Origin: Gammaproteobacteria bacterium
GTDB taxonomy: Bacteria > Pseudomonadota > Gammaproteobacteria > Ga0077536
Length of the DNA: 48,044 nucleotides
NCBI GenBank assembly: GCA_016874535.1
Contig: VGUA01000015.1
Coordinates: 1-48,044, forward strand
Direction of reading: 5' to 3'
A program made the translations under genes and the position numbers. This document shows positions 11,145-47,615 of the stretch, piece after piece. The notes beneath the pieces were generated by a model, which ran no database searches, was not told the DNA's origin, and saw only the letters and a program-made list of their open reading frames with translations. The number at the start of each line of letters is the position of its first letter. The stretch's first letter is position 1.

Positions 11145-12197
11145 CTATTCTTCCGTCGCCGCGGCGGTGGTCGTGGCAGGCGGCGGAGCGGGAGTCCCGA
11201 GTTCCGGATGATCCTTCAGCATGCTGAGACCGCCCAGCGGCTTGTTAAGCCCCTGATGGCAGGTACTGCAATTCGCCTTGAAGGGATCACCCAGGGCGCC
11301 CTGACGATTCTGCGGGAACACCGGGGCAAGCGGCTCGATGTAGTCGGCGTTGATCTCCCGGACCATCCGGATCCCGTGCCAGGCGGTCGCGCGCTGGGGA
11401 TTGCTTTCCTCCCACACCGCGAAGGCCCGCGAGTTGTGACAGAAGGTGCAGTTCACGCCGAGTGAATCGGACATGTGCATCATCAAGCCGTAGGTTTTCT
11501 CGGCGGAAAGAATGTCCGGCGCATGGGGCGGCTGCGTGGGCAGCGCCTGCGGGGCATTCACCCTGATCTCGGATGCGCCCAATAGAAACGGCGTGTAAGG
11601 GTCGAAAGGCAGCGACGACAAGCCCACACTGCGCACCGGGAAGTTCTGTCCTCCCTGGTTGCCGTCGAACCTGGAGCGGCGTACCGGTCCCGGATCCTTG
11701 GCCCAGTGATTGGTCGGTATGTTCTGCCCCGCGTGACAGGTATAGCAGGTCACGCCGGTTTCCTTCACATGGTCCGTCCAGCCGGTATTGATCGCGAGGG
11801 TCATTTCGATCATCCGTCGCGAAACGACCTTGGTGTATTTGGAATCGTCGGCAAAATCGGCTGCTTCGTGGCAGTAGGCACAACCCTCCTTGGGCGCGAC
11901 CCATGCAGTGATGCTGGCCATCAGTCGGCCGAACTGGCCCGCGTCCAGATGTCCCAGCACTTGCACATTCTTGTAGACATCACCGGCCTTGGGACCGCCG
12001 GGCGGAACCTGGGGCAGGGCAGCGGGCACCGCGGCTTGCGCTGCCGCGGCAGGATCGGCTCCGGGCTCGGCCAGCTCCACCATGGCTGTGCCCCGGAAGC
12101 CCTGCTGAGTACTTTCGACGGGCGGATACTGGTCGCATCCCGCAAGCGCAAGAAGGGCTGTGAGCATCAACGCGCGTGAGTGTGGATAGCCTCGCAT
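11145..12197 (-). CDS. pufC: Photosynthetic reaction center tetraheme cytochrome c subunit (PufC)
   Basis: Four CxxCH motifs (CAYCH, CYTCH, CTFCH, CSTCH); lipobox LAGC; start at 12197 overlaps pufM stop. Confidence 0.96.
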   Translation of the reverse strand: MRGYPHSRALMLTALLALAGCDQYPPVESTQQGFRGTAMVELAEPGADPAAAAQAAVPAALPQVPPGGPKAGDVYKNVQVLGHLDAGQFGRLMASITAWVAPKEGCAYCHEAADFADDSKYTKVVSRRMIEMTLAINTGWTDHVKETGVTCYTCHAGQNIPTNHWAKDPGPVRRSRFDGNQGGQNFPVRSVGLSSLPFDPYTPFLLGASEIRVNAPQALPTQPPHAPDILSAEKTYGLMMHMSDSLGVNCTFCHNSRAFAVWEESNPQRATAWHGIRMVREINADYIEPLAPVFPQNRQGALGDPFKANCSTCHQGLNKPLGGLSMLKDHPELGTPAPPPATTTAAATEE

Positions 12198-13171
12198 TAC
12201 TGCAGCCCTCCGCTTTGCAAGGTGGCCGGATCGACTACCGGCATGGGCGGGTATGGTGGTGCAATCCCATGCTTGACCCCCCACAGGTACCAGTTGTCCA
12301 CCACGGTTCCTGTAAGCAGGATGCCGATGCCGCCGGTCAGCGGGCAGAGCACCGCGAACCACCAAGCCCAGCGGTGGATGGATTCCATGGTGGCGTTGAA
12401 GCCCATGGTCCAGCGCCAGAAGAGCGCGGCGCGTTCGGACGCCGTTCCGCGGTCGACGATTTGTTCGATCTCACGCTCGCCACCGAGGCGGCTGACCGCG
12501 AGGATCGTTGCACCGTGCATGGCGAACAGGAGCGTTGAACCGTAGAGGAACGCGATTGAAAGCATGTGGAACGGGTTGTAGAACAGATTCCCGTAGCGAA
12601 TGGAGAACGCTGCAGTCCAGTCGAGGTGAGGGAAGATGCCGAAGGGCACCGCCTCGCTCCAGCTTCCCATCATCAAGGGGCGGATGAATCCAAGCACGAG
12701 ATAAAGCCAGATGGCCGAGGCAAACGCCCAAGTGGTATGCGTTCCCATGCCAAGTGCGCGGGCCCTGCGGTACATGCGCACCCACCAGAGGAGTATGGAG
12801 CTGGTCAGAAAAAATCCTGCCATGAGCCACCAGCCGCCTTCTGCCAAGGGTGGCAGAGTCAAGCCGTACTGCGGTGACGGAGGCTCCAGCGCAAGCCAGG
12901 GCAGCTGGCGCAGGAATTCCGTCGGGCTCCAGTTGACCGATGCGGCCATGTTGAGGCCGATGATCTCGATGGCGACGAAGAAGCAGAGGATGGAGGTCAG
13001 CCCCAGCCAGCCGAGGTAGAACGGTCCGATCTGCGCATCACCGATCTTGCCCAGCCAATAGGAAAAGATGGGCTGTCCTTGTCTGACCCAGCTGCCGCCA
13101 CGCATGGGCACGCCGGGGTAGGGCGCCGCGCGCACCTGCACGCGGGTGAAGATATTCTGGTAATCGGCCAT
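12197..13171 (-). CDS. pufM: Photosynthetic reaction center M subunit (PufM)
   Basis: [57 protein letters not shown]... Confidence 0.98.
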
Positions 13172-13215
13172 CGCGTATCCCCTCTAAGCGTTATTCCTGC
13201 GCTTTGCTTTGTTAT

Positions 13216-14037
13216 TCACCAGATCGGCAGGCTGAGCCACCAGTTCCACCATTCCGGCCAGCCTTTGCTCCAGAAGGGGCCGCTGATCACGATGCAGACC
13301 GCGCTCCAGAAGCCGGCCGAGAGGGCCAGGAACAGGCCGAGTCGGTGGATGCCCAGGGTGCCAATGGAGTACCCGATGGCATCCCTGAAGAAGGTGTTCT
13401 CGTGCTCCGGTGTCTTGACCTCCTCGCCGGCACCCGGATTGGTGGCGGAGAGAATCAGTGAACCGTGCAGGGACAGGGCGAAAGTGGTGGTGAAGAAAAA
13501 TGTCACCGCCAGCATGTGCGCCGGGTTGTAATGGAAATGCAGATACTGGTAGCCGGTGTTCGATACCCAGTCGAGATGGGACAGGATTCCGTACGGGAAA
13601 CCATGACCCCAGGCGCCCATCAGCAGCGGCCGGATCACAACGAGGGTGAAGTACGCAAAAATCGCGACACTGAAGGCAAAGGGCACGTGCAGCCCGATGC
13701 CAAGCTTGCGCGAGATTTCGACTTCACGCAGGGCCCAGGATCCGAAAGATCCGAGCGCACAGACGGTGATGATTTGCCACAGCCCCCCCTCCTTGAGCGG
13801 AGCGAGGCCGAGTCCGTACGACAGATCTGGTGGTGCGATGTTGATCTGCCAGACGTTCCAGGTCGGTCCCAAGGCCGCACCGTAAAGAATCAATGCTGTG
13901 CCGAGAATGGTGAAGAACGCCCCAGTGACTCCGAAGAAACCCACGTAGAAGGGGCCAATCCAGAAGTCGAACAGATCGCCGCCAAGCAGCGTTCCGCCCC
14001 GGACACGGTATTTTCTTTCAAAACTGAGCATGGGCAT
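13216..14037 (-). CDS. pufL: Photosynthetic reaction center L subunit (PufL)
   Basis: [46 protein letters not shown]... Confidence 0.98.
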
Positions 14038-33406: not shown

Positions 33407-34744
33407 TCAGGCGGCGTGACTGTCCTGCCGCGCCTGGGGCGTGCCCTGCAGTGCAAGACGCAGTTCCTCTGCGAATTCAGGCTCCAGCCCACTGAGGAAA
33501 GCCTCGAGCGAGCCCTCGGGGCCAGCGTGCAGCAGACCGCGCAGACCAAGACACGGGATATGGGCGAAGCGACGGGCCAAGGCTGCAGCCCAGGTTTCCA
33601 CCGCATCCTGCTCCGCGGGATTGAGGTGCGCGAGATCCTTTTTCAGCAGGCGCTTTACGCCCTCCTCCGCCGTGCGCCGGTAACGCTGCTGTAAGGCGCC
33701 GAAAAGGCGGCCGCTGTAGCGTTCGGCAAAGCGCTCGTTGGTTTTCTGCAGGGCTTCGTCCACCAGTTCACGGGCCTGTGCTGCCTCCAGCAGTCGGGCA
33801 GAGCGGTTCTGTTCGGCACGGCGCGTGATCTCCTCCATGCTGATCCGCGGAATGTCCAGTGCGCGGCAGACCTCCGGGTCGAAGTCAGGCGGAATGGACA
33901 TGTCGACGATCAGGGGCGAGTCTCCGGTAGGCGTGCGCGCTCCGAGGCGTTCGAGCTGCTCCTTGTCGAGCAAGGGCTCCGTCGCGCCGGTTGCGCTGAG
34001 GATGGCTTCGACGGGCGGTGGGTTATGGGCGAATTCCGCGAGGGACAGCACTTCGGCGCCGTAGGGTTCGGCGAGGGCTTCGGCCCGCGACGTAGTGCGA
34101 TTGACGATGAGCAAGGGGATACCTGCTGCATGCAGGGAGACTGCAGCGCGCTCGGTCATGGGCGAGACGCCCACCAGGGCCACCCGGCCGGGTGCCTCAC
34201 TCACATGTTCACGAATGAGATCGACCGCAATCTCTGCGAGTGACACCCGTCCAGCACCAATCCGCGTTTCACCGCGAATCGTACCCGCGACACGCAGCGC
34301 TTCTTCAAAGAGGGTTTCAAGAATCGGGCCGCACAGACCCAGACGTCGGGAAAGGTCCCAGGCGGTCCGGACCTGACCCGCGATCTCCACTTCGCCCAGC
34401 ATGGCGGAATCGAGGCCGGCGGTGGTGAGGAAGAGGTGTTCCATGGCGCCTTCGCCACCCCAGGCGCGCAGGGCCTTCAAGGCCTCCGCGGCTGTGCCCT
34501 CCTGCCCAGTGAGCAGGCGCAGGGCCTGAGGACGGAGATCGACCGAGGGGGTGTCTTCCGTGCACACAAACACCAGTTCCACCCGATTACAGGTGGCGAT
34601 GTATGCCAGTTCGGACAGGCCCTGCTCCTTGGCGAACGCCGCAAGGGCAGTTTCCACGGTCGCGGGCTCCAGTGTGTAACCCGCGAGAGAGGCCTTGCCG
34701 GACTGACGCCACGAGACCCCGATCATCCCCAGATTGCGCAACAT
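33407..34744 (-). CDS. hemA: Glutamyl-tRNA reductase (HemA)
   Basis: AYIATCNRVELVF catalytic-Cys region, LFLTTAGLDSAMLGEVEIAGQVRTAWDLSRRLG, NRTTSRAEALAEPYGAEVL. Confidence 0.88.
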   Translation of the reverse strand: MLRNLGMIGVSWRQSGKASLAGYTLEPATVETALAAFAKEQGLSELAYIATCNRVELVFVCTEDTPSVDLRPQALRLLTGQEGTAAEALKALRAWGGEGAMEHLFLTTAGLDSAMLGEVEIAGQVRTAWDLSRRLGLCGPILETLFEEALRVAGTIRGETRIGAGRVSLAEIAVDLIREHVSEAPGRVALVGVSPMTERAAVSLHAAGIPLLIVNRTTSRAEALAEPYGAEVLSLAEFAHNPPPVEAILSATGATEPLLDKEQLERLGARTPTGDSPLIVDMSIPPDFDPEVCRALDIPRISMEEITRRAEQNRSARLLEAAQARELVDEALQKTNERFAERYSGRLFGALQQRYRRTAEEGVKRLLKKDLAHLNPAEQDAVETWAAALARRFAHIPCLGLRGLLHAGPEGSLEAFLSGLEPEFAEELRLALQGTPQARQDSHAA

Positions 34745-34885
34745 CGGCCGGCCTCCACAGAGCAATGGGCGCAAGTAGAACGGATTCACTCCCGCGAATT
34801 GTCACGGCTGTGTCACGTGCGGGATGCCGGGCTCAGGAAAGTCAGGCACAACCAAAGCCCGAACCCTGACCATATAATCGGCGTC

Positions 34886-36397
34886 ATGCCCCCAACGCAC
34901 AACGGAACCGGACCGATCATCGTAGCCGGCATGCATCGCTCCGGGACTTCGCTAACGGCCTCATGGCTCACGCATCTCGGAGTGGACATGGGCCGGCAAC
35001 TGGTTCCGGCCGATGAAGCGAACCGGAAAGGCTATTTTGAAGACACGGCTTTTCTCGCGCTCAGTCGCCGGATGCTGGCCACCGCCTGCAGACAAGAGGC
35101 GGGTGGCCATGCGGATTGGGGCTGGGCCGGGGAGCAAGGTCCGAGTGCCGCGGCGCTCGAATCCTTCCGACCGGAAGCGACCGCGCTCGTGGCCGAGGGT
35201 CGTGCCCGGGGTGCGCTGTGGGGTTGGAAAGACCCACGCACCACCATGCTGCTCGAGTTCTGGCATTCAGTGGCGCCCGATGCGCGCTACCTCTTCCTCT
35301 ACCGTTACCCTTGGGAAGTCTCGGCGTCCATTCATCGTCTGGGCGCCAAGGTTTTTTCCGAACACCCGGACTATCCCGAGCGATTCTGGTTAGCGTACAA
35401 CCGGGCCTTGCTCGAGTTCCTCGCGGCGCATCCGGACCGCTACGTGCTCGCCAACACCAACGCGCTCGTTGCCAACCCCTCGGTGCTGCCAGAGCTCCTG
35501 CGCAATCAATGGGGCCTGAACCTTCAGGGTGATCTGACATCGGCCTTGGAGGCTGAGCTTTTCGAAGCAGCCCCACCGGCGGATCCGCTCCCGGGCCTGC
35601 ATGCGCTCGCTTGGCCAGAGGCGTCACAAATGCTCTCTGCGCTGGATGCCGCCGCCCATTTGCCTTCGGATGGCGCGCAAAGAATTGCCGGCTTTGCCCC
35701 GCGTCTCCTGCATGCGACCGGGACCAAGCCACGCTTCAGCATCGTCACCCCGGTACATGACGACGGCGTGTATCTGGCGGAAGCCATCGCCAGTGCCGAG
35801 CGCAGCTGCACGCCGGAAACCGAACTCATCATCATCAATGACGGTTCGTCCGAACCTTTCACCTGCGCCTTCCTCGAGCGACTACAGAAACGCGGATATC
35901 GGGTCGAACACCAGACCAACCGGGGACTCGCCAACGCGCGCAACCATGCCATTCGCCTAGCGCGCGGTGACTGTCTTCTGCCGCTCGATGCGGATAATCG
36001 CCTGCGCCCGAATTACCTGAGACGCGCGGGCGAGGTACTCGAGGCCAATCCATCGATAGGCGTGGTGTACGGTGATCGCCTGGAATTCGGCCTTCGAAGC
36101 GGCCGGGTGGAGGTTCCCGCTTTTGAGTGGGAGGCCATGTTCGACAGGAACACCATCGATGCATGCGCCGTATTCAGACGTCAGGCATGGGTGGACGCGG
36201 GTGGCTTTGACGAATCCCTGCCCGCGCTGGAAGACTGGGACTTCTGGTTGCGTGTCTGGCTGTCGGGCTGGGATTTTCATCATGTTCCAGAGATTACTTA
36301 CGACTACCGGGTGCGCGCAGGGAGTCTTACGCAGTGGCTGAAAGCCAGCGCACGTTATCGGGAATTGAGGCGCCAGATTCGCGCCCGGAAGGATTGA
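34886..36397 (+). CDS. Bifunctional sulfotransferase-like / glycosyltransferase family 2 protein
   Basis: N-terminal PAPS-loop-like IIVAGMHRSGTSLTASWLTHLGVDMG; C-terminal GT2 FSIVTPVHDDGVYLAEAIAS...ELIIINDGSSEPFT...PLDADNRLRPNYL. ATG at 34886 in frame with ORF 34436. Confidence 0.85.
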   Translation: MPPTHNGTGPIIVAGMHRSGTSLTASWLTHLGVDMGRQLVPADEANRKGYFEDTAFLALSRRMLATACRQEAGGHADWGWAGEQGPSAAALESFRPEATALVAEGRARGALWGWKDPRTTMLLEFWHSVAPDARYLFLYRYPWEVSASIHRLGAKVFSEHPDYPERFWLAYNRALLEFLAAHPDRYVLANTNALVANPSVLPELLRNQWGLNLQGDLTSALEAELFEAAPPADPLPGLHALAWPEASQMLSALDAAAHLPSDGAQRIAGFAPRLLHATGTKPRFSIVTPVHDDGVYLAEAIASAERSCTPETELIIINDGSSEPFTCAFLERLQKRGYRVEHQTNRGLANARNHAIRLARGDCLLPLDADNRLRPNYLRRAGEVLEANPSIGVVYGDRLEFGLRSGRVEVPAFEWEAMFDRNTIDACAVFRRQAWVDAGGFDESLPALEDWDFWLRVWLSGWDFHHVPEITYDYRVRAGSLTQWLKASARYRELRRQIRARKD

Positions 36398-36398
36398 T

Positions 36399-36423
36399 GA
36401 CCATGCGCTTGTTGCGCATGGTC
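36399..36423. repeat. 10-bp-stem inverted repeat after the GT2 gene
   Basis: GACCATGCGC-TTGTT-GCGCATGGTC. Confidence 0.5.
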
Positions 36424-36524
36424 ACCCCTGCGGGGCGCCTCCGCTGCGCTCCGGCGTCCCGATTCGCTTCGCAAATCGGTCGAACGCGAGGTCCAACTCG
36501 AGCGTCCAGACCCATCAGAATTGG

Positions 36525-36548
36525 AAAAGGGTCCCTAAGGACCCTTTT
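36525..36548 (-). terminator. Rho-independent terminator immediately downstream of the tRNA-Arg 3' fragment
   Basis: AAAAGGGTCC-CTAA-GGACCCTTTT. Confidence 0.75.
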
Positions 36549-36555
36549 TCAATTC

Positions 36556-36600
36556 TGGCGCGCCCGGAAGGATTCGAACCTCCGACCCCCTAGTTCGTAG
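36556..36600 (-). pseudogene. 3' fragment of tRNA-Arg(ACG): anticodon loop to CCA; putative att-site remnant
   Basis: Reverse strand: CTACGAACTAGGGGGTCGGAGGTTCGAATCCTTCCGGGCGCGCCA; no matching D-arm/acceptor 5' half adjacent. Confidence 0.75.
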
Positions 36601-36843
36601 TTACGAACTGCAAAATTAACTAGCTGATTTATTTAACGTTATGGCGGTCGCGCCCGTTGCAAAATGCGCCACTGAGCCTGACTTTTCAGCACTGACTTCG
36701 GCAAATCTTCGGCAGCCGTTTCTGGAGGCGCCGCCTACTGCCGACACGGTTACCCGTTCACTTCCGCATCGCCACGCCGCGTGCGGAACTCCCTTGGTTA
36801 TAATCCGGATAGTAACGCGACCAATGCAGCGAGGAGCACAAGC

Positions 36844-37023
36844 ATGATACCGGCCAAGCAAGAAGCACTTGAGTCAATCCGCAAGCTCCCCGACGACGCC
36901 GACATGGAGGAGATCATGTATCGGCTTTACGTCATCGATAAGATTCGAAAGGGTCAGGACGCTGTCAATCAGGGGCAACTCACCACCAGCGAAGCGCTCA
37001 TGCGCGAAATTGAGAAATGGTAG
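36844..37023 (+). CDS. Putative antitoxin of a RelE/ParE-type toxin-antitoxin pair
   Basis: 59-aa MIPAKQEALESIRKLPDDADMEEIMYRLYVIDKIRKGQDAVNQGQLTTSEALMREIEKW; GAGGAG RBS; overlaps the toxin start. Confidence 0.75.
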   Translation: MIPAKQEALESIRKLPDDADMEEIMYRLYVIDKIRKGQDAVNQGQLTTSEALMREIEKW

Positions 37024-37313
37024 TTTGGTCGGACCCCGCTAAAGCCGATTTGCGCGCCATTCACGATTTCATCGCTCGCGATTCGAAGTTCTACGCGGGG
37101 AAAGTCGTTCAAGACATCATCGAAAAATCACGCGCCGTTGGCACGCTGCCAAGAGCAGGGCGCGTGGTGCCGGAACTTGGTGAACAAGATATCCGGGAAA
37201 TTGGTGCACATACGTACCGCATCATCTATGAGGCCCGAGGTGCGGACTGTTATGTGCTCGCCGTGCTTCATAAGCGGCGTGACCTTCAACCAGAGTTAGT
37301 GGAACGGCGCTGA
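37017..37313 (+). CDS. RelE/ParE-family toxin
   Basis: MVVWSDPAKADLRAIHDFIARDSKFYAGKVVQDIIEKSRAVGTLPRAGRVVPELGEQDIREIGAHTYRIIYEA...VLAVLHKRRDLQ. Confidence 0.88.
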   Translation: MVVWSDPAKADLRAIHDFIARDSKFYAGKVVQDIIEKSRAVGTLPRAGRVVPELGEQDIREIGAHTYRIIYEARGADCYVLAVLHKRRDLQPELVERR

Positions 37314-37548
37314 CGATAACTGAGCGTCCGGTGAACCCACCTTGCGGAGTCTTGACCGGAGTCGTTAGGCCAAAAACTCGCCGATAATGTTGCCGGACCG
37401 GAAAACCGGTGCCTGGGCTTTCCTGGATAATTTTTAGGGTTCGCTCGACTTCATCGGTAAACGCAAATCCGACTCCCGCGACTTGGCGCTCGTAATATCG
37501 GGCGGCGTGACGAAGTTCTTGCCGAGCATCGGCATGAAATTCGATCAC
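37222..37548 (-). pseudogene. Truncated RelE/ParE-family toxin with non-homologous C-terminus
   Basis: N-terminus MIEFHADARQELRHAARYYERQVAGVGFAFTDEVERTLKIIQESPGTGFPV is ParE-like; the C-terminus diverges and reads antisense into the 37017 toxin. Confidence 0.7.
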
Positions 37549-37766
37549 TTCAAGGAGTGACGAACTGCCTCAAACACTTCGGAGGCAAAGACAGTCACAG
37601 CAGCGCCGCTTTTGATTTCAGACCAGCGACGTTCAATTTCGACACGCCAATCCTGGGCAACGTCGCCGTGATCTTGGTTTTCCAGTGATTCGATCAGCGT
37701 TAATGCCAAGCGCGCGCGTTCCGGTTCAGATAGCGGTCGAACTTGCGATTCAATTTCGCGAAAGGT
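37545..37766 (-). CDS. Addiction-module antitoxin (Unstab_antitox-like), fused in frame to upstream transposase sequence
   Basis: EIESQVRPLSEPERARLALTLIESLENQDHGDVAQDWRVEIERRWSEIKSGAAVTVFASEVFEAVRHSLK; open frame extends to 37931. Confidence 0.65.
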   Translation of the reverse strand, partial: TFREIESQVRPLSEPERARLALTLIESLENQDHGDVAQDWRVEIERRWSEIKSGAAVTVFASEVFEAVRHSLK

Positions 37767-37901
37767 GTACTGGGCGGGGAGTAGGCGGACTTCGTGTCCG
37801 AGTGCGTGTGCGGTGCGGCCCCAGAAGTGTGCGGTGCCGCAGGCTTCGAACAAGACCAGGGCGGGTGGCTGCGCGGCGATGAAGGTGGAGAAGGCCTTGC
37901 G
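37767..37901 (-). mobile_element. IS110-family transposase fragment
   Basis: SRKAFSTFIAAQPPALVLFEACGTAHFWGRTAHALGHEVRLLPAQY. Confidence 0.75.
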
Positions 37902-37972
37902 CGAGAGCCGCAGCTCCGGCAGAAGCCGCATCGCTTACAGCTGAAAGCCACCAATCGCTCGGCGTGACAGTC
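37898..37972 (-). mobile_element. IS91-family transposase zinc-binding fragment
   Basis: DCHAERLVAFSCKRCGFCRSCGSRA. Confidence 0.7.
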
Positions 37973-38152
37973 CATGCAGCGCATGAGGCAGTAAGCCCAG
38001 ATTGCAACGCCCGCTTCTTCGCGGGCTTGCGACAACAAAGTCGGGTAGTAGCGGTAATCGTCGTTGCAGAAGAACGTCTGCATGCGGCGAGCACCGCGTT
38101 GAGTGACGTGGTGCGGATAGTCGGGAACGACCAGTTTCGGCATCCGTGCCAT
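37973..38152 (-). mobile_element. REP-associated tyrosine transposase (RAYT, Y1) N-terminal fragment
   Basis: MARMPKLVVPDYPHHVTQRGARRMQTFFCNDDYRYYPTLLSQAREEAGVAIWAYCLM. Confidence 0.82.
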
Positions 38153-38196
38153 GAGTGATGACCTCCGTGTCTTCCATGACACGGACAGGCTAGTCA

Positions 38197-38422
38197 GCGA
38201 ATTGAATTGAGTAAACTGTCCCCGGAGAGTGCAAGGTTCAGCGGCTATCGGCGTTCTGCAAGGTCGCCTTGGCCGCTGCAAACGGGCACTGCCCGGCTTT
38301 CGCACGACTCCTGTCTTCCGGTGTGATCTTTTCCCCCAGTCGGGGCCGATGGCCAGCGGACCGAGCTTCTATTTGGGAGACAGTTCCATTTGTCGTGAAC
38401 TGAATTGAGTGAACTGTCCTCG
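38197..38422. repeat. Pair of ~28-bp imperfect direct repeats (38197-38224 and 38395-38422)
   Basis: gcgaattgaattgagtaaactgtccccg vs gtgaactgaattgagtgaactgtcctcg (24/28 identical by eye). Confidence 0.7.
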
Positions 38423-38434
38423 TCATTCTCCCCA

Positions 38435-38556
38435 TCATTCCCTTGCGATTGCTTTCACGGGGCCACCACAGTGCGCGCAGATTTGCATGTCGCTCTTAAA
38501 CACCCGTTTCAGCCAGGGCTTGCAGGTCTCGATATCGATTTTGAACACGCGCTTCA
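38435..38556 (-). mobile_element. IS91-family transposase C-terminal remnant
   Basis: Reverse-strand LKRVFKIDIETCKPWLKRVFKSDMQICAHCGGPVKAIARE*. Confidence 0.7.
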
Positions 38557-38572
38557 GTCTTGCGTATGAGGC

Positions 38573-40612
38573 TCATCGACAGGCGGGGCGCGGCGCATCC
38601 GCGATGAGCGCCCGGAGATGACGGGCGATACTGTCCGCGTTGGGCAGCGCCGCCGCCTGGAGAACCGGCGAGGCAGGGATTCGGATATCGGGCGTCGTGA
38701 GCCGGCGCACCGGCATGCAGAGGCTCTCAGGCATCCGCTCCTGTAGGTGCATTGCGAGCTCCGCGGCGAAGCCGCCGGCGCGCACCGCTTCATGCACGAT
38801 CAGCACTCGCCCGCCGGCTTCCCGCACGGCGTCGGCGATCGCCGCCTCGTCAAGCGGGCGCAGCCAGCGCAGGTCCATCACCGCGACGTCGAGGCGCTCG
38901 GCAGCGAGAGCCTCCGCCGCGGCCAGCGCCTGGTGCAGCATCGCGCTCCAGGTCAAAACGAGCGCATCGCTGCCGCGCCGATGCAGACGCGCGCGTCCAA
39001 CCGGTTCCGCACCTTCCGTTATCCGCACCGGACCGCTCAATTGATAGAGTCCGCGCGCTTCGATGACGACGCAAGGATCGGGATCCGCCGCGGCCGCGCG
39101 CAGCAACTGGTAGGCGTCGTCCGGTGTCGCCGCCAGCGCAAGCTTCAGCCCGGGAATGTGTGCGAGCAGGGCCTCGATGCTTTGCGAATGCTGGGCGCAG
39201 GAACCGGGCGTCACACCTTGCTGCATGCGCACGACGAGCGGCGCACCGCTGCGGCCGTTCGTGAGATAGCGCACGTTCGAGGCCTGATTGATCAGCTGAT
39301 CGAAAGCCACGAAGACGAAATCGCTCCACATGATTTCGACGACAGGCTTCAGGCCCGCGAGGGCGGCACCGAGCGCCGAGCCGAGGATCGCGTTCTCGGC
39401 GATGGGCGTATCGAACACGCGCGCCTCGCCGTATTTCTTTTGCAGATGCTTCGCCGCGCCGAAAATGCCGCCGGCCCGGCCCACGTCTTCGCCGTAGACC
39501 ACCGTCCGGGGATCGGCCTCGAGTTCGGCCGCGAGGGCGGCGTTTACCGCGGCGATGTAGGTCATTTCGCAGGTCTCGAGCACGCGCTGTCCGCTCTCCG
39601 CGGCCACCGGCGCATACACGTGATCGCAGAGCGTCGCGACGGCGGGCAGGGGCGCGTTGGCCGCGCGCTGGGCGATCTCGGTGGCGCGCGCTTCCGCCGC
39701 GCTACGCACCGCGGCGAGCGCATCGTCACTCGCGGCGCCGCAGGCGCGGAGCCGCTCCGCGATCACGAGCAACGGATCCTGCGCCGCCGCCGCGCGCTTG
39801 TCGGCTGCCGGGCGATAGTGCTCGATGTCGCGGTTGTAATGTCCCCACAGCCGCGGCACGCGGCACTCGAGCAGCGTCGGTCCACCGCCCTGCCGCGCGA
39901 TTCCGGCTGCCTTGGCCACGGCCTCGCGCACCGCGATCGGATCCGTCCCGTCCAGCGTCTCGCCGCCCATGCCGTAGGCGAGCGCCCGCCGCGCGAGACG
40001 CTCCACCGGGAACATGTCGCGCGTCGCAGTGAGCTCGGACCAGCCGTTGTGTTCGCACACGAAGATCACCGGCAGCTTCTTCGCGGCGGCGAAAGCCAGC
40101 GCTTCGTGCACCGAACCCTGGTTCATCGCGCCGTCGCCGATCGAGACGATGACGACGCGACCGTTGCCCGCCGCGACGTTCGCGAGCGCAACGCCGCAGG
40201 CAATCGTCGTCCCGGCGCCGACGATGGAGTTCTCCCCGATGAAGCGGGTATGTGGAGCCTGCAGATAGGCCGAGCCTGCGCGTCCGCCATTGATGCCGCT
40301 CGCGCGATGGCAGAGCTCGTCGAACACGGCCTGCGGCTCGAGACCTGCGGCGAGCGCCCAGCCATGGCCGCGATATGTGGCGATGACCTGATCGTCGTCC
40401 GCGAGCGCGGCAAGCGCCGCAAGGGGCACGACTTCTTGCCCAGCGCACAGATGCACCGAGCCCACGATCTGCGGCGGCATAGCGCGTGAGAGTTCCAGCG
40501 CCTGCTCTTCGAACGCGCGGATGAACGCCGCGCGTTCGAAGATCCGCTGCAGGAACGCGGGATCCGCGTGGACGCTCGGCGATGCGGCCGCGGCGGAGTT
40601 GGTATTGGTCAT
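38573..40612 (-). CDS. Thiamine-dependent 2-oxoacid (acetoin/pyruvate-type) dehydrogenase E1, fused alpha and beta subunits
   Basis: Alpha part ...AALADDDQVIATYRGHGWALAAG..., VSIGDGAMNQGSVHEAL; beta part YIAAVNAALAAELEADPRTVVYGEDVGRAGGIFGAAKHLQKKYGEARVFDTPIAENAILG. Confidence 0.93.
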   Translation of the reverse strand: MTNTNSAAAASPSVHADPAFLQRIFERAAFIRAFEEQALELSRAMPPQIVGSVHLCAGQEVVPLAALAALADDDQVIATYRGHGWALAAGLEPQAVFDELCHRASGINGGRAGSAYLQAPHTRFIGENSIVGAGTTIACGVALANVAAGNGRVVIVSIGDGAMNQGSVHEALAFAAAKKLPVIFVCEHNGWSELTATRDMFPVERLARRALAYGMGGETLDGTDPIAVREAVAKAAGIARQGGGPTLLECRVPRLWGHYNRDIEHYRPAADKRAAAAQDPLLVIAERLRACGAASDDALAAVRSAAEARATEIAQRAANAPLPAVATLCDHVYAPVAAESGQRVLETCEMTYIAAVNAALAAELEADPRTVVYGEDVGRAGGIFGAAKHLQKKYGEARVFDTPIAENAILGSALGAALAGLKPVVEIMWSDFVFVAFDQLINQASNVRYLTNGRSGAPLVVRMQQGVTPGSCAQHSQSIEALLAHIPGLKLALAATPDDAYQLLRAAAADPDPCVVIEARGLYQLSGPVRITEGAEPVGRARLHRRGSDALVLTWSAMLHQALAAAEALAAERLDVAVMDLRWLRPLDEAAIADAVREAGGRVLIVHEAVRAGGFAAELAMHLQERMPESLCMPVRRLTTPDIRIPASPVLQAAALPNADSIARHLRALIADAPRPACR

Positions 40613-40764
40613 CGGAATGCTCCTGCAAAACTAGGCGCACCGGCGGAAGCGGAGCGCGGGTAGAAGAAGTGCCGCGTCGGTGTGTCGACAGAGAAGAAGT
40701 GAATGCCATGGATCGAATCAAACGACCAAGGCAATTAAACCTGGCGCAATGTCTTTTCGCGCGA

Positions 40765-41580
40765 TCAGGGCCAGGGTTTGCCAGGCGACAGCGCCGCCCG
40801 GCGCTTCGCCTCGTCCTCTTCGAGCACGATGGGATCGTGCGCCGGATAGATGATGTCGCCGCGAATCGCGATGTCGCGCATGGCGCGCTGCATCTGCTCG
40901 AGGTCATAGAAAATGCCGGCCGGTATCGCCTTGCGCACGTTCATATCGACCTTCCGCACCATGTCGCCGACGCAACCGACAATGCCATCGAGTGTCTTGA
41001 TGTACACGCACTGGCTTCCCGGCGTGTGGCTGTTCGGATAGAGGATGCACTCGATGCCCGGAAAGAGCTCGATGTCGCCCTCGATCAGCTCCACCCGGTC
41101 CCACAGCGTGTCGACCATTGCCGCAACGTCATGGCGGTCGTAGAAGAGCTCGCGCGAGCCGATGTCGAGCGTGCGCGGCCCCATGGGCGCGGCGGCCGCG
41201 GCGAGTTCGCTCCGTTGCACCACGATCCTTGCGTTCGGCAACTGCTCACAGCCGCCGCAGTGATCATAGTGGAGATGCGTGAGGATCACGCAGCCGACTT
41301 CCTCCGGCTTCACGCCGTAGCGTCCTAGCTGCTCGGGCAGCGTCATGCCGGCCGGGATGCGGTGCGGGCCGAGACGGTGGATCTGCATCGCCCGGTCGGC
41401 GCTGCGCATGCCGGCATCGATCAGGATCGGGTCGCGGCCGCCTTCGATCAGGAACGCGAGGATGGGCACCGTCACGCGCCCCTGGTCCTTGTTCATGCCC
41501 CAGAAGACGTCGAGGGCACACCCGACTTCGGCCTCCCCGAGGAGCAGGGGGCGAACGCGGTACTGCTGGCTCATAGGCAT
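40765..41580 (-). CDS. MBL-fold metallo-hydrolase (lactonase-like)
   Basis: Zn motif VILTHLHYDHCGG; PNSHTPGSQCVYI; IIYPAHDP. Confidence 0.9.
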   Translation of the reverse strand: MPMSQQYRVRPLLLGEAEVGCALDVFWGMNKDQGRVTVPILAFLIEGGRDPILIDAGMRSADRAMQIHRLGPHRIPAGMTLPEQLGRYGVKPEEVGCVILTHLHYDHCGGCEQLPNARIVVQRSELAAAAAPMGPRTLDIGSRELFYDRHDVAAMVDTLWDRVELIEGDIELFPGIECILYPNSHTPGSQCVYIKTLDGIVGCVGDMVRKVDMNVRKAIPAGIFYDLEQMQRAMRDIAIRGDIIYPAHDPIVLEEDEAKRRAALSPGKPWP

Positions 41581-41614
41581 GCTCCCCTTGCACTGTTCGG
41601 ACGATGACCCTTGT

Positions 41615-42139
41615 TCATTTCGACACCCCCTCCGGCGCCGCGGTCGTTCGCATCTCGTTCGCCGCCTGCCGCACCGCCTTCACGATGTTCACGTAACCCG
41701 TACAGCGACAGATGTTGCCGGCCAGCCCCGCGCGGATCTCCTGATCCGTCGGCGCAGGGTTCGCGGCGAGCAAGGCGCGCGTCGAGTTGATCATGCCGGG
41801 CGTGCAGAAACCGCATTGGAGACCGTGGCAGTCGATGAACGCACGCTGGATCGGATGCAGTGCGTCCGCACCCGCCGCGAGACCTTCGATCGTCTCTACG
41901 CTCTTGCCCTCGGCCTGCACGGCGAACATGAGGCAGGCGCGCACCGCGCGCCCGCCGACCAGCACGGTGCAGGCGCCGCACTTGCCGTGTTCGCAGCCCA
42001 CGTGGGTGCCGGTGAGCCCGAGCTCGTTGCGCAGGAAATCGGAGAGCAGGAGCCGCGGCTCGACGGCACGCGTATAGCTCGTACCATTCACGCTCGTCGT
42101 CACGCGGATCGCTTTCATTGCCGCCTCGTTCATCGTCAT
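41615..42139 (-). CDS. (2Fe-2S)-binding small subunit of a xanthine dehydrogenase/CODH-family Mo-hydroxylase (CoxS-like)
   Basis: [16 protein letters not shown] and [15 protein letters not shown]...[16 protein letters not shown]. Confidence 0.95.
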
Positions 42140-43008
42140 GCTCCCTTCGCCATTGCGTCGATATAGGCGGCAAGCAGGGCCTGCTTCACCAGCACACCGG
42201 CGAGATGCCGCTTATATTCCCCGCCGGCCACGTTGTCGTCCTGCGGATCGCTCAACGCGTCCACGAGCCGCGCAGCCTCGGCTGCACGTGCGGCATCGAG
42301 CGGGTGACCGATGACCGCCGGGCCGACGTCGAAAGACAACGGAGTCTCTGCGACGCCGCCGAGCGCGAGCGACACAGCGCTCACCTTGTCCCCTGCGCCG
42401 ACACTGACCAGCGCCGCGACGTTGACGATCGCGAAGTCACCGACCCGCTTTGCGAGCTCGCGGAACGCCGACCCGCTACGCGGCAAGGGCACCGGGATGC
42501 GGATCTCGGTTAGCACTTCGTGCGGCGCGATGTCCGTCAGGTAGGTCGTGACGAAGAATTCCGCAATCGGCACGACGCGCTCGCCTTTTGCGCTCGCGAC
42601 GACCACTTCTGCGCCGAGACAGCAGAGCGCGACGCCGCCCTCTGCCGAGGGATCGTTATGCACTACGCTGCCGCCGAGCGTGCCGCGATTGCGGATCGCC
42701 GGGTAGCCGACGTGGCCGAGCGCTTCGCTGAGCAGCGGCAGGCTCTCGCGTACTAGTGGGCTGTCGATCAGATCCTGGTAGCGCGCCATGGCGCCGATGC
42801 ACAACCAGTCACCGTCGCGCCCGACGTGGTTCAGCGCTTCCACGCCGTTGATGTCGACGAGCACCTCGGGCTGAGCGACGCGAAAATTCATCATCGGCAC
42901 GAGGCTCTGACCGCCGGCGATGATCTTCGCGTTATCGTGCGCAGCGAGCGCCGAGAAGAGCGCGGGCAGAGTGTCGACGCGGACGTAGTCGAACGGCTTC
43001 GGTTTCAT
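42136..43008 (-). CDS. FAD-binding medium subunit (CoxM-like)
   Basis: [46 protein letters not shown]. Confidence 0.95.
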
Positions 43009-43472
43009 GACCCCACCTCCTCGGCAGGCAGATCCTCGCCCGCGATCACTTTCTCGACACGCTTGAAGAATTGTTTGGTCAGGAGCTTCGCAATGGGCAA
43101 CAGCGCGCGCTGCGCTAGGCCGGTCATCGCGCCGCCGACCGTCGCCTCGAAGCTGTAGGCGACGCGGGTCGCGTCGCCGTTGTCCTGCAGGGTGACGATG
43201 CCAACGACGCTCATGGTGCCGATTGGGCCGGCGCCTTCCGCCGACATCACATAGCGCTCGCCTACCAGTTTCTCGGCGATTCGCATCCGCCCTTTGTAGG
43301 TGCCGGAGATCGAGGCGATGCCTATTTTCGTCACCAGCTCAAAATCATCGGGTCCCACGACGGCCAAGGATTGACAGCCCGGGGTGCAGCGCTCGATGAC
43401 CTTTGGATCTATCAGTGCGTCCCACACGACCGGCGGCGTTCCGCTGACCTCGGATTCGCCTTCGAATTTCAT
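43005..43472 (-). CDS. CoxG-like SRPBCC protein
   Basis: MKFEGESEVSGTPPVVWDALIDPKVIERCTPGCQSLAVVGPDDFELVTKIGIASISGTYKGRM. Confidence 0.9.
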   Translation of the reverse strand: MKFEGESEVSGTPPVVWDALIDPKVIERCTPGCQSLAVVGPDDFELVTKIGIASISGTYKGRMRIAEKLVGERYVMSAEGAGPIGTMSVVGIVTLQDNGDATRVAYSFEATVGGAMTGLAQRALLPIAKLLTKQFFKRVEKVIAGEDLPAEEVGS

Positions 43473-45877
43473 GCGCCCACCTCGTACATTTCACGCCATA
43501 TGGACGACGTCTTGAGGAGCCGGATCACGCGCTCCGGGGTCAGCGGCAGTTGATCAACGCGCACGCCAAAAGGCTTCAGCGCATCCTCCACCGCGTTCAC
43601 CATGGCCGCACACGGCATGATCGTGCTGCCCTCACCCATGCCCTTGGTGCCGAGCGTGGTATAGGGCGACGGTGAGATCACGTGATCGCACTTGATGTCC
43701 GGCACATCGGTCGCGAGCGGATGCAGGTAACTGGTCAGGTCCGTGTTCCAGAGCTGGCCGCGCTCGTCGTAGTGGAACTCCTCCATCAGCGCACCGCCAA
43801 TCCCCTGCACGTAACCGCCGTGCAGCTGGCCCTCGACGATGGTCGGATTGATGATCACGCCGCAGTCGTCGACGATCGCGACGTCCTTCACCTCGATCTT
43901 CCCGGTCTCGGCGTCGACCTCGACGATGATCGCGCTCGAACCACTGGGGTGCGTCGTATAGAGTCGAATGCGGCCGAGTTCGTCCGGTGTCCAGGACGCG
44001 ATCGGGCTCGTCCAGTAGTGCGTGACCTCGAAGGGGTTGGCGACATGCTTCGGCACGACGCCGAACGCGCCGGGCCATAGATGGAGCTTGTTACCGAGCT
44101 CGCGCAGGGTCATGCGGCGACCACCGGGCTCGACGATGGCGCCGTCGGCCGCGACCAAGCCCGCCGCTTCGCACTGCCACAGGTTCGCGACCACCTCGAA
44201 CAGGTTGGCCTTCAGCCGCCGCGCCGCCTCGGCGATGCAGGAGACATTGAACGTGGCGCCGCGGCTCGACCACGGTCCGAGTCCGTAGGGCACGGCGTTG
44301 GTGTCGCCGTAGACGACGCGCACGTCGTCGGGGGTGAGCCCGAGCTCATCGGCCACGACCTGGCAGAGTGTCGTCTCGGAGCCCTGCCCGATGTCCTGGT
44401 GGCCGGTCAGCACCAGCACGCCGCCTTCCGGCATCAGCCGCACGGTCGCGACCTCATAGGAATTGAAGATGCAGCTCGGTACCGCGCCGCCCGAGGGCTC
44501 GAGCATGGACGCGATGCCGATGCCGAGATACTTGGCGCTCTTGCCCTGAGTCGCGGCCTGGCGCTGCTTGACCTCGTCGTAGTCGACGAGCTCGAGCAGC
44601 TTGGCGAGGCATTGTGCGTAGTCGCCGCTGTCGTAGACGGGGCCCGAGATCTGCTGGTAGGGAAACTCGTCCTTGCCGACGAAATTCCGGCGACGGAACT
44701 CCGCCGGCGAGAGCCCGAGCGCATCGGCCATGCGGCTCATCGCGACTTCGAGCGGGTAGTTCGCAATGTCCTTGCCGTAGCCGCGATAGGCGCCGCTCGG
44801 CGCCTTGTTGGAGACGGCCACCTTGGTCGCGACGCGGAACGCGTGCCACTTGTAGGGTCCCGGCACATAGCCCGCGGCGACGAGGAATTTGCCGGCGCCC
44901 GCCGCGTGGCAGGTGCCGTCGCAGCCGACATTGCCCAGGACCTGCGCGTCGAGGCCCTGCAGTATGCCGTCCTTGCTCACCGCAACCTTGAGATACCAGA
45001 CGTAGTCGCGACACTGCATGCCGGACAGCAGGTTCTCCTGGCGCGACTCGGTCCACTTCACGGGGCGGCCCGTCGCGAGCGAGAGCAGGCAGGGGATGAC
45101 TTCGGCGTCGGCCTGCAGCTTGTTGCCGTAGCCACCGCCGATGTCGGGCGCTATCACCTGCACGTCGTGTTCGGGGAAGCGGAAGGTCTGCGCCACGAGG
45201 GTGCGGACCAGGTTTGGCGCCTGGGTCGAACAATGCAGCGTAAGCTTGCGGTTGTAGGCATCGTAGTGCGCAAGCGCGGCGCGTCCCTCGAGGCTCGCAC
45301 CCGAGTAGCGATGCTGCGGCAGGCGGAATTCGAAGACGTGGTCCGCTCGTGCGAAGGTTTCGTCGACGGCGCCGACCGACATGCCCCACGCGCACTGCAC
45401 GTTGTCGCCCCACTCGGGGTAGAGCAGCGGCGCACCCGGCGCGAGGGCCGCTTCGGTGTCGGTGACGGCCGGCAGCACTTCGTATTCGACGTCGATGAAT
45501 TCGAGCGCGTCTTCGGCCAGGTAGCGCGTGTCCGCGGCAATGGCGACGACCGGCTCACCCATGTAGTAGACCTTGTCCGTCGCGAGAGCGTAGACCGTCG
45601 GCACTTTCATGCCGATGTCGATGGTCGGCGCCAGCGGTCCCCAATACCGTTTCGCGTCCTCGCCCGTCAGCACCGCATGCACGCCGGGTAGTGCGCGGGC
45701 GCGCGAGACATCGACCGACTTGATGCGCGCGTGGGCATGGGGACTGCGCAGCATCGCCGCGTGCAGCATCCCGGGCACGCTGATGTCGTCCGTGTAGCGG
45801 CCGTGGCCGGTGACGAGGCGCAGGTCCTGCTTGCGCGCGAGACTCGCGCCGACCCAGCGCGATGTGGACTTCGTCAT
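43469..45877 (-). CDS. Molybdopterin-binding large subunit, xanthine dehydrogenase family (CoxL-like)
   Basis: VGASLARKQDLRLVTGHGRYTDDI...; DIGGGYGNKLQ; APSGAYRGYGKDIANYPLE; GTKGMGEGSTI. Confidence 0.95.
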   Translation of the reverse strand: MTKSTSRWVGASLARKQDLRLVTGHGRYTDDISVPGMLHAAMLRSPHAHARIKSVDVSRARALPGVHAVLTGEDAKRYWGPLAPTIDIGMKVPTVYALATDKVYYMGEPVVAIAADTRYLAEDALEFIDVEYEVLPAVTDTEAALAPGAPLLYPEWGDNVQCAWGMSVGAVDETFARADHVFEFRLPQHRYSGASLEGRAALAHYDAYNRKLTLHCSTQAPNLVRTLVAQTFRFPEHDVQVIAPDIGGGYGNKLQADAEVIPCLLSLATGRPVKWTESRQENLLSGMQCRDYVWYLKVAVSKDGILQGLDAQVLGNVGCDGTCHAAGAGKFLVAAGYVPGPYKWHAFRVATKVAVSNKAPSGAYRGYGKDIANYPLEVAMSRMADALGLSPAEFRRRNFVGKDEFPYQQISGPVYDSGDYAQCLAKLLELVDYDEVKQRQAATQGKSAKYLGIGIASMLEPSGGAVPSCIFNSYEVATVRLMPEGGVLVLTGHQDIGQGSETTLCQVVADELGLTPDDVRVVYGDTNAVPYGLGPWSSRGATFNVSCIAEAARRLKANLFEVVANLWQCEAAGLVAADGAIVEPGGRRMTLRELGNKLHLWPGAFGVVPKHVANPFEVTHYWTSPIASWTPDELGRIRLYTTHPSGSSAIIVEVDAETGKIEVKDVAIVDDCGVIINPTIVEGQLHGGYVQGIGGALMEEFHYDERGQLWNTDLTSYLHPLATDVPDIKCDHVISPSPYTTLGTKGMGEGSTIMPCAAMVNAVEDALKPFGVRVDQLPLTPERVIRLLKTSSIWREMYEVGA

Positions 45878-46166
45878 GGTGGTCTCCCCTCACTGTCGAA
45901 CGCTGGTTGTCGACGCTCCCCGGGGCGGGCACCGGGACCGTAGACCCACGGCGCTCGCGACGAGAGCGTCTTCCTCGCCCGCCCGGTGGGTCGAGGCGTG
46001 TCATGGATCACCGACCCACAAGCCGGTCCAGTCCGGGGCAGTGGCCTGCTATCTCTTGCCGGCCAGCCCGCCTGTGAGCCAATATTGCGCGTACAAATCT
46101 GCCTGTGACAGGTCCAGTCGCTCGAAACTGGACCACCACCGAATCAAGAGTGAAGGGGGTGACTCC

Positions 46167-47615
46167 ATGAATGCCGGGCGACGTCTGCGTGCAGGCGCAC
46201 TCATCAGGTTGTTCGGTGACTGGCGGCCCGGTCGCGGCGATATTGCCTCCTCGATCGAAGGGCGCATCACCCAACTGGTGTGCGATGGTCGTCTGTCTTT
46301 TGGGACGCAACTACCGTCCGAGCGCGACCTGGCGCGTGAACTCGGCGTGAGCCGGACGACGGTAGCCGCAGCTTATGACCGGCTCCGCGCCGGCGGTCAT
46401 CTGGAGACCCGTCAGGGCGCAGGCAGCTGGGTCGCGCAGGGAGACACCCAGGCGAGCGAGGCGGCGACGCCCTGGTATCCCGTCGGCACGCACGACGAGA
46501 TCGATCTCACGCAAGCCGCACTACCCGCGCCGACAACGTTCTTTGCGGATCTGCTCGCGCGCGCCGCGCCCGCCGCCAACCGCTACAGCGAGGGGCATGG
46601 CTACTATCTCTACGGGCTCCCCGAATTGCGCGCTGCTATTGCGCGTCGCTACACCGACCGCGGCGTGCCAACCACCGCGGGTCAAATCCTCGTCACGACG
46701 GGCGCACAGAACGCGCTCGCGCTGTGTCTCGCGGCGATCCTTCGACCGGGTTCCCGCGTGCTCGTCGAGCACCCGACCTACCCCAACGCGCTCGCGGCGA
46801 TACGCCGCTGGGGCGGGCGTTGCGTACCGGTCGACCTCGACCCTGCCGGCTGGGACCCCGAACGCTGGCGCGAAGCAGTGCGTGAAGCGCGGCCGGATTT
46901 CATCTACTGCGTGCCGGATTGCCACAATCCGACCGGACTCATCATGCCCGAGGACTGCCGTGCACGCCTCGTCGATATCGCTCGTCTGTCCGGGGCGGCG
47001 TTGGTGGTCGACGAGACGCTGACCGACCTCGCCCTCGACGAACCATCACCCACTGCGTTGTCCAGATTTGCGCGCGACGGCATGCTTCTGCTGTCCCTCG
47101 GCTCGCTCAGCAAGGTTTTTTGGGGTGGCCTGCGTGTCGGGTGGATGCGCGGGCCGGAGGCCTTCATCGCGCGCGCCGCCACGGTGAAGGCGACGCTCGA
47201 TATGGCGACCCCGGTGTTGGACCAGCTGATTGCTTGCCAGGTGCTGGCCGACCTCGAGACCATCGTCGCGCCACGACGCGCGCACCTGCGCGCGAATCGT
47301 GCGGCGCTGGTGGAAACCATCGCGAGGTCGATACCCGCCTGGCAGACCGCCACGCCGGCGGGCGGCATCAGCGCCTGGGTCAGACTGGGTGCACCAGTCG
47401 CGACGCGGCTGAGTGAGGTCAGCCACCTCTGCGGTGTGGCGATTACCCCAGGCCCCATGTTCGGCATCGACGGTTCCTTCGAGGACTACATCCGCCTGCC
47501 GCTCACGCTTACGAATGCAATGCTCGCCGAGGCCATGCAACGCCTTGTCCGTGCCTGGATCGCGGTGCGCGATACGCGTGCCGTGAAACCGCGGTCTCTC
47601 GTCGGTACCGTGTGA
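46167..47615 (+). CDS. MocR-type GntR/aminotransferase-like transcriptional regulator
   Basis: N-terminal wHTH FGTQLPSERDLARELGVSRTTVAAAYDRLRAGGHLETRQGAGSWV; PLP-fold with SLSKVFWGGLRVGWMRGP; start trimmed from ORF start 45810. Confidence 0.92.
   Translation: MNAGRRLRAGALIRLFGDWRPGRGDIASSIEGRITQLVCDGRLSFGTQLPSERDLARELGVSRTTVAAAYDRLRAGGHLETRQGAGSWVAQGDTQASEAATPWYPVGTHDEIDLTQAALPAPTTFFADLLARAAPAANRYSEGHGYYLYGLPELRAAIARRYTDRGVPTTAGQILVTTGAQNALALCLAAILRPGSRVLVEHPTYPNALAAIRRWGGRCVPVDLDPAGWDPERWREAVREARPDFIYCVPDCHNPTGLIMPEDCRARLVDIARLSGAALVVDETLTDLALDEPSPTALSRFARDGMLLLSLGSLSKVFWGGLRVGWMRGPEAFIARAATVKATLDMATPVLDQLIACQVLADLETIVAPRRAHLRANRAALVETIARSIPAWQTATPAGGISAWVRLGAPVATRLSEVSHLCGVAITPGPMFGIDGSFEDYIRLPLTLTNAMLAEAMQRLVRAWIAVRDTRAVKPRSLVGTV

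Follow-up and report, generated by a model that had tools for sequence, protein, structure and literature searches.

Beside the photosynthesis genes of this gammaproteobacterial genome lies what looks like half of a tRNA gene, and the question raised by the locus is whether it marks the place where the chromosome gives way to a mobile element and on which side of it that element lies. A preliminary description, made from the letters of the window alone (the window being the whole 48,044-nucleotide stretch of DNA analysed here, which is the entire contig C15), took it for the att remnant of a tRNA-targeting integrase, with the insert running from 36.6 kb rightwards. The reading favoured here, at a probability of about 0.93, is the site-specific insertion of an island in tRNA-Arg(ACG), with the tRNA rebuilt at the integrase end and the fragment displaced to the other end of the element. 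An island in tRNA-Arg(ACG) is a well-known sort of event, and here it is documented at both of its ends.

The tRNA-Arg fragment and its intact counterpart

On the minus strand, positions 36600 to 36556 read CTACGAA-CTAGG-GGGTC-GGAGGTTCGAATCCTTC-CGGGCGC-G-CCA, that is, tRNA-Arg(ACG) from the anticodon loop to CCA. Neither ARAGORN nor Rfam (at gathering threshold) calls a tRNA in the window, and the sequence upstream of the fragment's anticodon loop has no similarity to a tRNA 5' half; the initial reading of a 3' half with its terminator (36555-36518) and an absent 5' half was exact. The features on and around the junction are as follows:

33407-34789, minus strand: hemA (glutamyl-tRNA reductase; Pfam GlutR), the chromosomal flank, 91% identical to the hemA beside tRNA-Arg in the congener G003
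36380-36395, minus strand: short second copy of the tRNA-Arg 3' end (AATCCTTCCGGGCGCG), an exact repeat that closes the rtT-like unit
36391-36486, minus strand: rtT-like structured RNA repeat, the native tRNA trailer, now detached (covariance model R1, 89.7 bits)
36518-36555, minus strand: original rho-independent terminator of the tRNA-Arg gene (stem-loop, MFE -22.1 kcal/mol)
36556-36600, minus strand: displaced 3' half of tRNA-Arg(ACG), the distal attachment site (attR), 44/45 identical to C131:3632-3708
36643-36662, minus strand: second conserved element-end block (TTGCAACGGGCGCGACCGCC), kept at the distal ends of the G010 and G008 elements
36699-36714, minus strand: putative integrase arm-binding site TGCCGAAGATTTGCCG, inside the element, its position conserved in homologous elements

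Searched with up to 3 mismatches, the 3.08-Mb genome holds the 45-mer in one other place, the intact tRNA-Arg(ACG) at 3632-3708 of contig C131, and reversed patterns run as controls gave 0 matches, so that chance is excluded as the origin of the match. The block of identity begins at the anticodon loop. The duplicate on which the preliminary description had staked its case is therefore present, and an intact gene does carry it; the identity foreseen over all 45 nt falls short by a single base. This mismatch lies in the anticodon stem, with T in the fragment and C in the intact copy, and as the same T is found in intact tRNA-Arg(ACG) genes of the relatives G003, G010, G016 and G022, the base probably represents the allele of the host's original 3' half and not decay.

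Beside the intact gene on C131 stands a tyrosine integrase ORF (L033:2512-3789; Pfam PF00589 and PF02899), convergent on the tRNA, followed in order by a 120-aa ORF for which Pfam gave no match and a second recombinase-like protein (PF12834/PF12835). A glutaminase gene (the glsA side) lies upstream of the tRNA. Directly after CCA come a hairpin and T-run of the element's own, likewise seen in the homologous elements of G008 and G010, from which the rebuilt tRNA gets a new terminator. As the integrase abuts the regenerated tRNA on C131, at the other end of the element, the att site in the window is the distal one, away from the integrase; an integrase thus exists as anticipated, although at the opposite extremity of the element and on another contig instead of immediately beyond the window's right edge. 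The C131 integrase ORF (425 aa) stays open through the antisense of the entire tRNA gene, whereas the G008 and G010 integrases end at 367 aa, before the tRNA gene. An IS91 domain (zinc-binding) and IS debris are also found at the C131 end.

The two junctions have sequence in common beyond the tRNA core. Exact matches to the 16-nt TGCCGAAGNTTTGCCG number only two in the 3.08-Mb genome (C15:36699-36714 and C131:3549-3564), one inside each junction and both in the same orientation; the pattern was picked after both ends were known, and the test is its rarity elsewhere rather than its presence at the ends. Similar sequences stand at near-equal distances in the G008 and G010 elements, and the copies may be regarded as putative integrase arm sites. 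Read in the same orientation, a 22-nt stretch inside the distal junction and one inside the integrase-side junction agree at 18 positions, against 17 for the best of 60 shuffles; this likeness, taken by itself, is suggestive only. The block at 36643-36662 is more weakly conserved at the distal end of the G020 element. A third match to the arm motif, at C26:205-220 with one mismatch, was set aside as chance: it falls in a coding region that looks like a D-alanine ligase, with no tRNA core adjoining. With an intact tRNA elsewhere, a tyrosine integrase beside it and a motif inside both junctions, the interpretation of the fragment as an att remnant is borne out.

Targeting of tRNA genes is a property of this integrase family. 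Relatives of the integrase were collected at 80 loci, 8 of which stop too soon downstream; a tRNA gene lies just 3' of the integrase in 62 of the remaining 72 and is convergent with it in all 62 (Met 21, Arg 19, Lys 13, Phe 5, others 4). Three of these relatives (L080, L082 and L122) are on contigs titled as Klebsiella pneumoniae MAG, a species label that is probably wrong.

Undisturbed sites and a whole homologous element

Comparison with relatives, as proposed at the outset, recovers both the undisturbed site and the former neighbourhood of the two flanks. G012, G013, G016 and G022 each have an intact tRNA and, directly behind it, a terminator and the trailer repeat that comes after the fragment here, a hairpin-plus-T-run of the same kind as 36518-36555 standing immediately 3' of the tRNA; the order tRNA-terminator-repeat is the empty site as seen in relatives. 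The congener G003 has hemA (minus strand), the decayed C-terminus of an integrase (plus), an intact tRNA-Arg (minus) and a decayed glsA (plus), which is the order and orientation predicted if the left part of the window and the right part of C131 flank one element. G003 has neither the glycosyltransferase gene that lies between hemA and the junction in the window nor the trailer repeat and is therefore not a clean empty site; integrase remains are still present in it.

G008 offers the complete arrangement. On its contig C68, a homologous element of 14.7 kb lies between an intact tRNA (1990-2066) and a fragment that starts from 16742, the two having 47 identical bases that begin at the anticodon loop; the att sites are in direct orientation on a single 18.8-kb contig, whereas the ends in the source genome lie on two. 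The element has the same integrase module; next come a GntR regulator, molybdenum hydroxylase subunits, a class-III aminotransferase, hydantoinases A and B and (by eye) an acyl-CoA dehydrogenase-like ORF, and at its distal end stands a HigB toxin with an HTH partner in the place equivalent to that of the window's ParE toxin. The right side of the window has this same layout, a toxin ORF near the junction with metabolic genes behind it, among them those of a CO-dehydrogenase-like molybdenum hydroxylase. Directly behind the G008 fragment stands a second integrase module (L058, G008:C68 16742-18838), two islands being stacked head to tail, from which it follows that elements can stack at tRNA-Arg.

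Proposed insertion, alternatives and known systems

In the mechanism proposed, an element with a tyrosine integrase would have inserted site-specifically at the anticodon loop of tRNA-Arg(ACG), at a point between what are now C131 (glsA side) and the window (hemA/photosynthesis side). The element's own tRNA 3' half and terminator would have replaced those of the host, restoring a working tRNA at C131, and the host's original 3' half, its terminator and its rtT-like trailer would have been moved to the far end of the element to become the fragment in the window. Both junctions, the identity of the core, the end motif in common, the integrase, the adjacency of the flanks in the congener and the whole homologue are directly observed. 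Strand exchange would have fallen within the anticodon loop, and we infer that both ends belong to one copy of the element bridged by an assembly gap. It is worth noting, however, that the ends are on separate contigs with the intervening span out of sight, and that the repeat is imperfect by one mismatch.

The separation of the ends leaves room for the window fragment and the C131 integrase end to belong to different elements, through a tandem array or partial loss at an island hotspot. Such a history has the displaced-fragment mechanism in common with the best explanation and differs from it only in the number of elements, and the confidences placed in the two overlap. In its favour, G008 has two head-to-tail elements, with fragment 1 followed by the second integrase module, and the IS debris and IS91 domain at the C131 end point to decay. 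It is nevertheless unlikely: the whole genome holds only one fragment and one intact copy, the exact end motifs number exactly two, and a tandem array predicts an extra fragment, unless that fragment sits inside the assembly gap.

Two further explanations may be weighed. A chimeric join in a metagenome-assembled contig, or an error of binning, has to be considered for a MAG-like genome in 189 contigs, the more so as chimeras arise at repeats; yet G010 and G008 each have the junction of fragment and arm motif independently, and G003 is syntenic with the left flank, which makes an artefact most improbable. Less credible still is that the 45-mer belongs to an rtT-like array as one unit of a tRNA-trailer repeat, or that it is a second tRNA copy in decay. 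Repeats of tRNA 3' ends are known downstream of tRNAs in this group, and one lies beside the fragment, but trailer units contain only short or split tRNA 3' ends without an anticodon loop, whereas in G008 and G010 the fragments are bounded almost identically, at the anticodon loop, and the sequence upstream of the fragment here matches element ends of other genera.

A single island insertion places the locus close to the Islander-type genomic islands in tRNA genes (PMC4383910), in which the tRNA is likewise regenerated at the integrase end with the displaced 3' fragment opposite, and the tyrosine integrase is convergent on the tRNA; there is no essential difference, although the element here has: 1) two recombinase genes and a small ORF at the integrase end; 2) metabolic cargo; and 3) a toxin-antitoxin module at the distal end. 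With SE (strand-biased circularizing integrative element; PMC10214605) and GInts it has in common a cluster of two or more tyrosine-recombinase genes at one end and Gammaproteobacterial hosts, but its target is a tRNA gene and no Srap was seen between integrase and tRNA. Identity with SE/GInt (an intA-tfp-intB-srap operon with a large Tfp) was rejected, the middle ORF being only 120 aa with no Pfam match; the SE screen itself left out Tfp homologues of <550 aa as truncated (PMC10214605). A RIT element, with three tyrosine recombinase genes in a row, was likewise rejected, there being only two recombinase-domain proteins and the 120-aa ORF.

The island, the photosynthesis region and the trailer RNA

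With the host 3' half pushed to the far end of the element, the DNA to the right of about 36.6 kb lies inside it; the chromosome in the window stops there and the island begins, with these features:

36844-37023, plus strand: small ORF that may encode the antitoxin to the ParE-like toxin (by position only)
37017-37313, plus strand: ParE-family toxin (PF05016, E 2e-15) of a parDE-like module near the distal end
37222-38560, no strand assigned: broken toxin-antitoxin and transposase debris (overlapping partial ORFs, PF09720 antitoxin domain, short repeats)
38573-47612, no strand assigned: probable island cargo (Pfam)

The small ORF has no Pfam match. The probable cargo encodes an E1 dehydrogenase/transketolase-like protein, an MBL-fold hydrolase, a CoxS/CoxM/CoxG/CoxL-like molybdenum hydroxylase and a MocR-like regulator. 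It has only a weak match in G003 (65% over 401 bases), and G004 has a related stretch at another location (79% over 801 bases). Island content to the right of the junction, with cargo nearly absent from the congener, upholds the side to which the preliminary description had assigned the insert. Among the proteins scanned there were no relaxase or type IV secretion genes such as define a conjugative element (ICE), most of the element lying in the assembly gap. By eye, the broken transposase pieces at 37222-38560 are like IS91, IS110 and REP-type transposases; the IS91-like one is similar to the zinc-binding domain of IS91 type found at the C131 end, a likeness that may explain the assembly break.

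The boundary between photosynthesis-side chromosome and mobile island is now fixed, and from its position it follows that the molybdenum hydroxylase genes to the right are best not counted in the photosynthesis region. Beyond this genome, tRNA-Arg(ACG) islands that carry metabolic genes are documented as a family of elements in this bacterial family. The photosynthetic reaction-centre genes (window 11148-14037; family f1) are themselves patchy, being present in 6 of 36 family genomes from 5 genera, which suggests loss or horizontal spread. Arrival of the photosynthesis cluster at tRNA-Arg was considered and rejected, no element end having been found on the cluster's far side; the photosynthesis contigs of G010 and G019 gave no tRNA-Arg match in a search that covered these two genomes and not G040.

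Enclosed by the old terminator and the 16-nt second copy of the tRNA 3' end, the 96-nt repeat (36486-36391) belongs to a structured RNA family. It is one of the 20 units from which model R1 was built, and their alignment has 27 predicted pairs, 14 of them with compensatory changes; the hairpins lie between the parts of a split tRNA T-arm copy. The unit is present in 23 of 36 family genomes and in 27 of 143 sampled genomes of the class. Units lie mostly 61-90 nt downstream of tRNA-Ser or tRNA-Arg genes, often in tandem at 166-180 bp; among the 45 in which the motif could be placed, 28 have a tRNA gene on their own strand no more than 250 nt upstream of the unit's start (17 Ser, 8 Arg, 2 Gln, 1 Pro).

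The nearest known counterparts are the rtT (RttR) repeats of E. coli behind tyrT/tyrV (Bosl and Kersten 1991, as cited in PMC2965389), in which a chain of hairpins likewise stands between GGTTCGA and a copied 3' end of the cognate tRNA; the trailer here differs in following tRNA-Arg, and elsewhere mostly tRNA-Ser or tRNA-Arg, and in its G+C-rich hairpins. R1 finds all three of the rtT units that follow tyrV in E. coli, with 17-20 bits (E 0.0004-0.002 in a 2.5-kb search with filters off); the family is likely homologous to rtT, but this score is weak. With E values up to 10 allowed, Rfam gave no rtT match and no credible family in this part of the window; mir-9457 and other weak matches were rejected as hairpin look-alikes with scores far under gathering. 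On balance, we lean towards 36391-36486 being a member of a broad, conserved family of tRNA-trailer RNAs, of which E. coli rtT would be a divergent member, with this copy detached by the island. If this is true, rtT is no E. coli curiosity but a widespread element tied to tRNA-Ser and tRNA-Arg genes, and a covarying trailer behind many tRNA genes makes its function testable outside E. coli. Three further loci (L176, L197 and L202, in G043 and G016) have rtT-like units with a tRNA-Arg-like 3' end and no upstream tRNA, and are candidates that may prove to be further displaced island ends.
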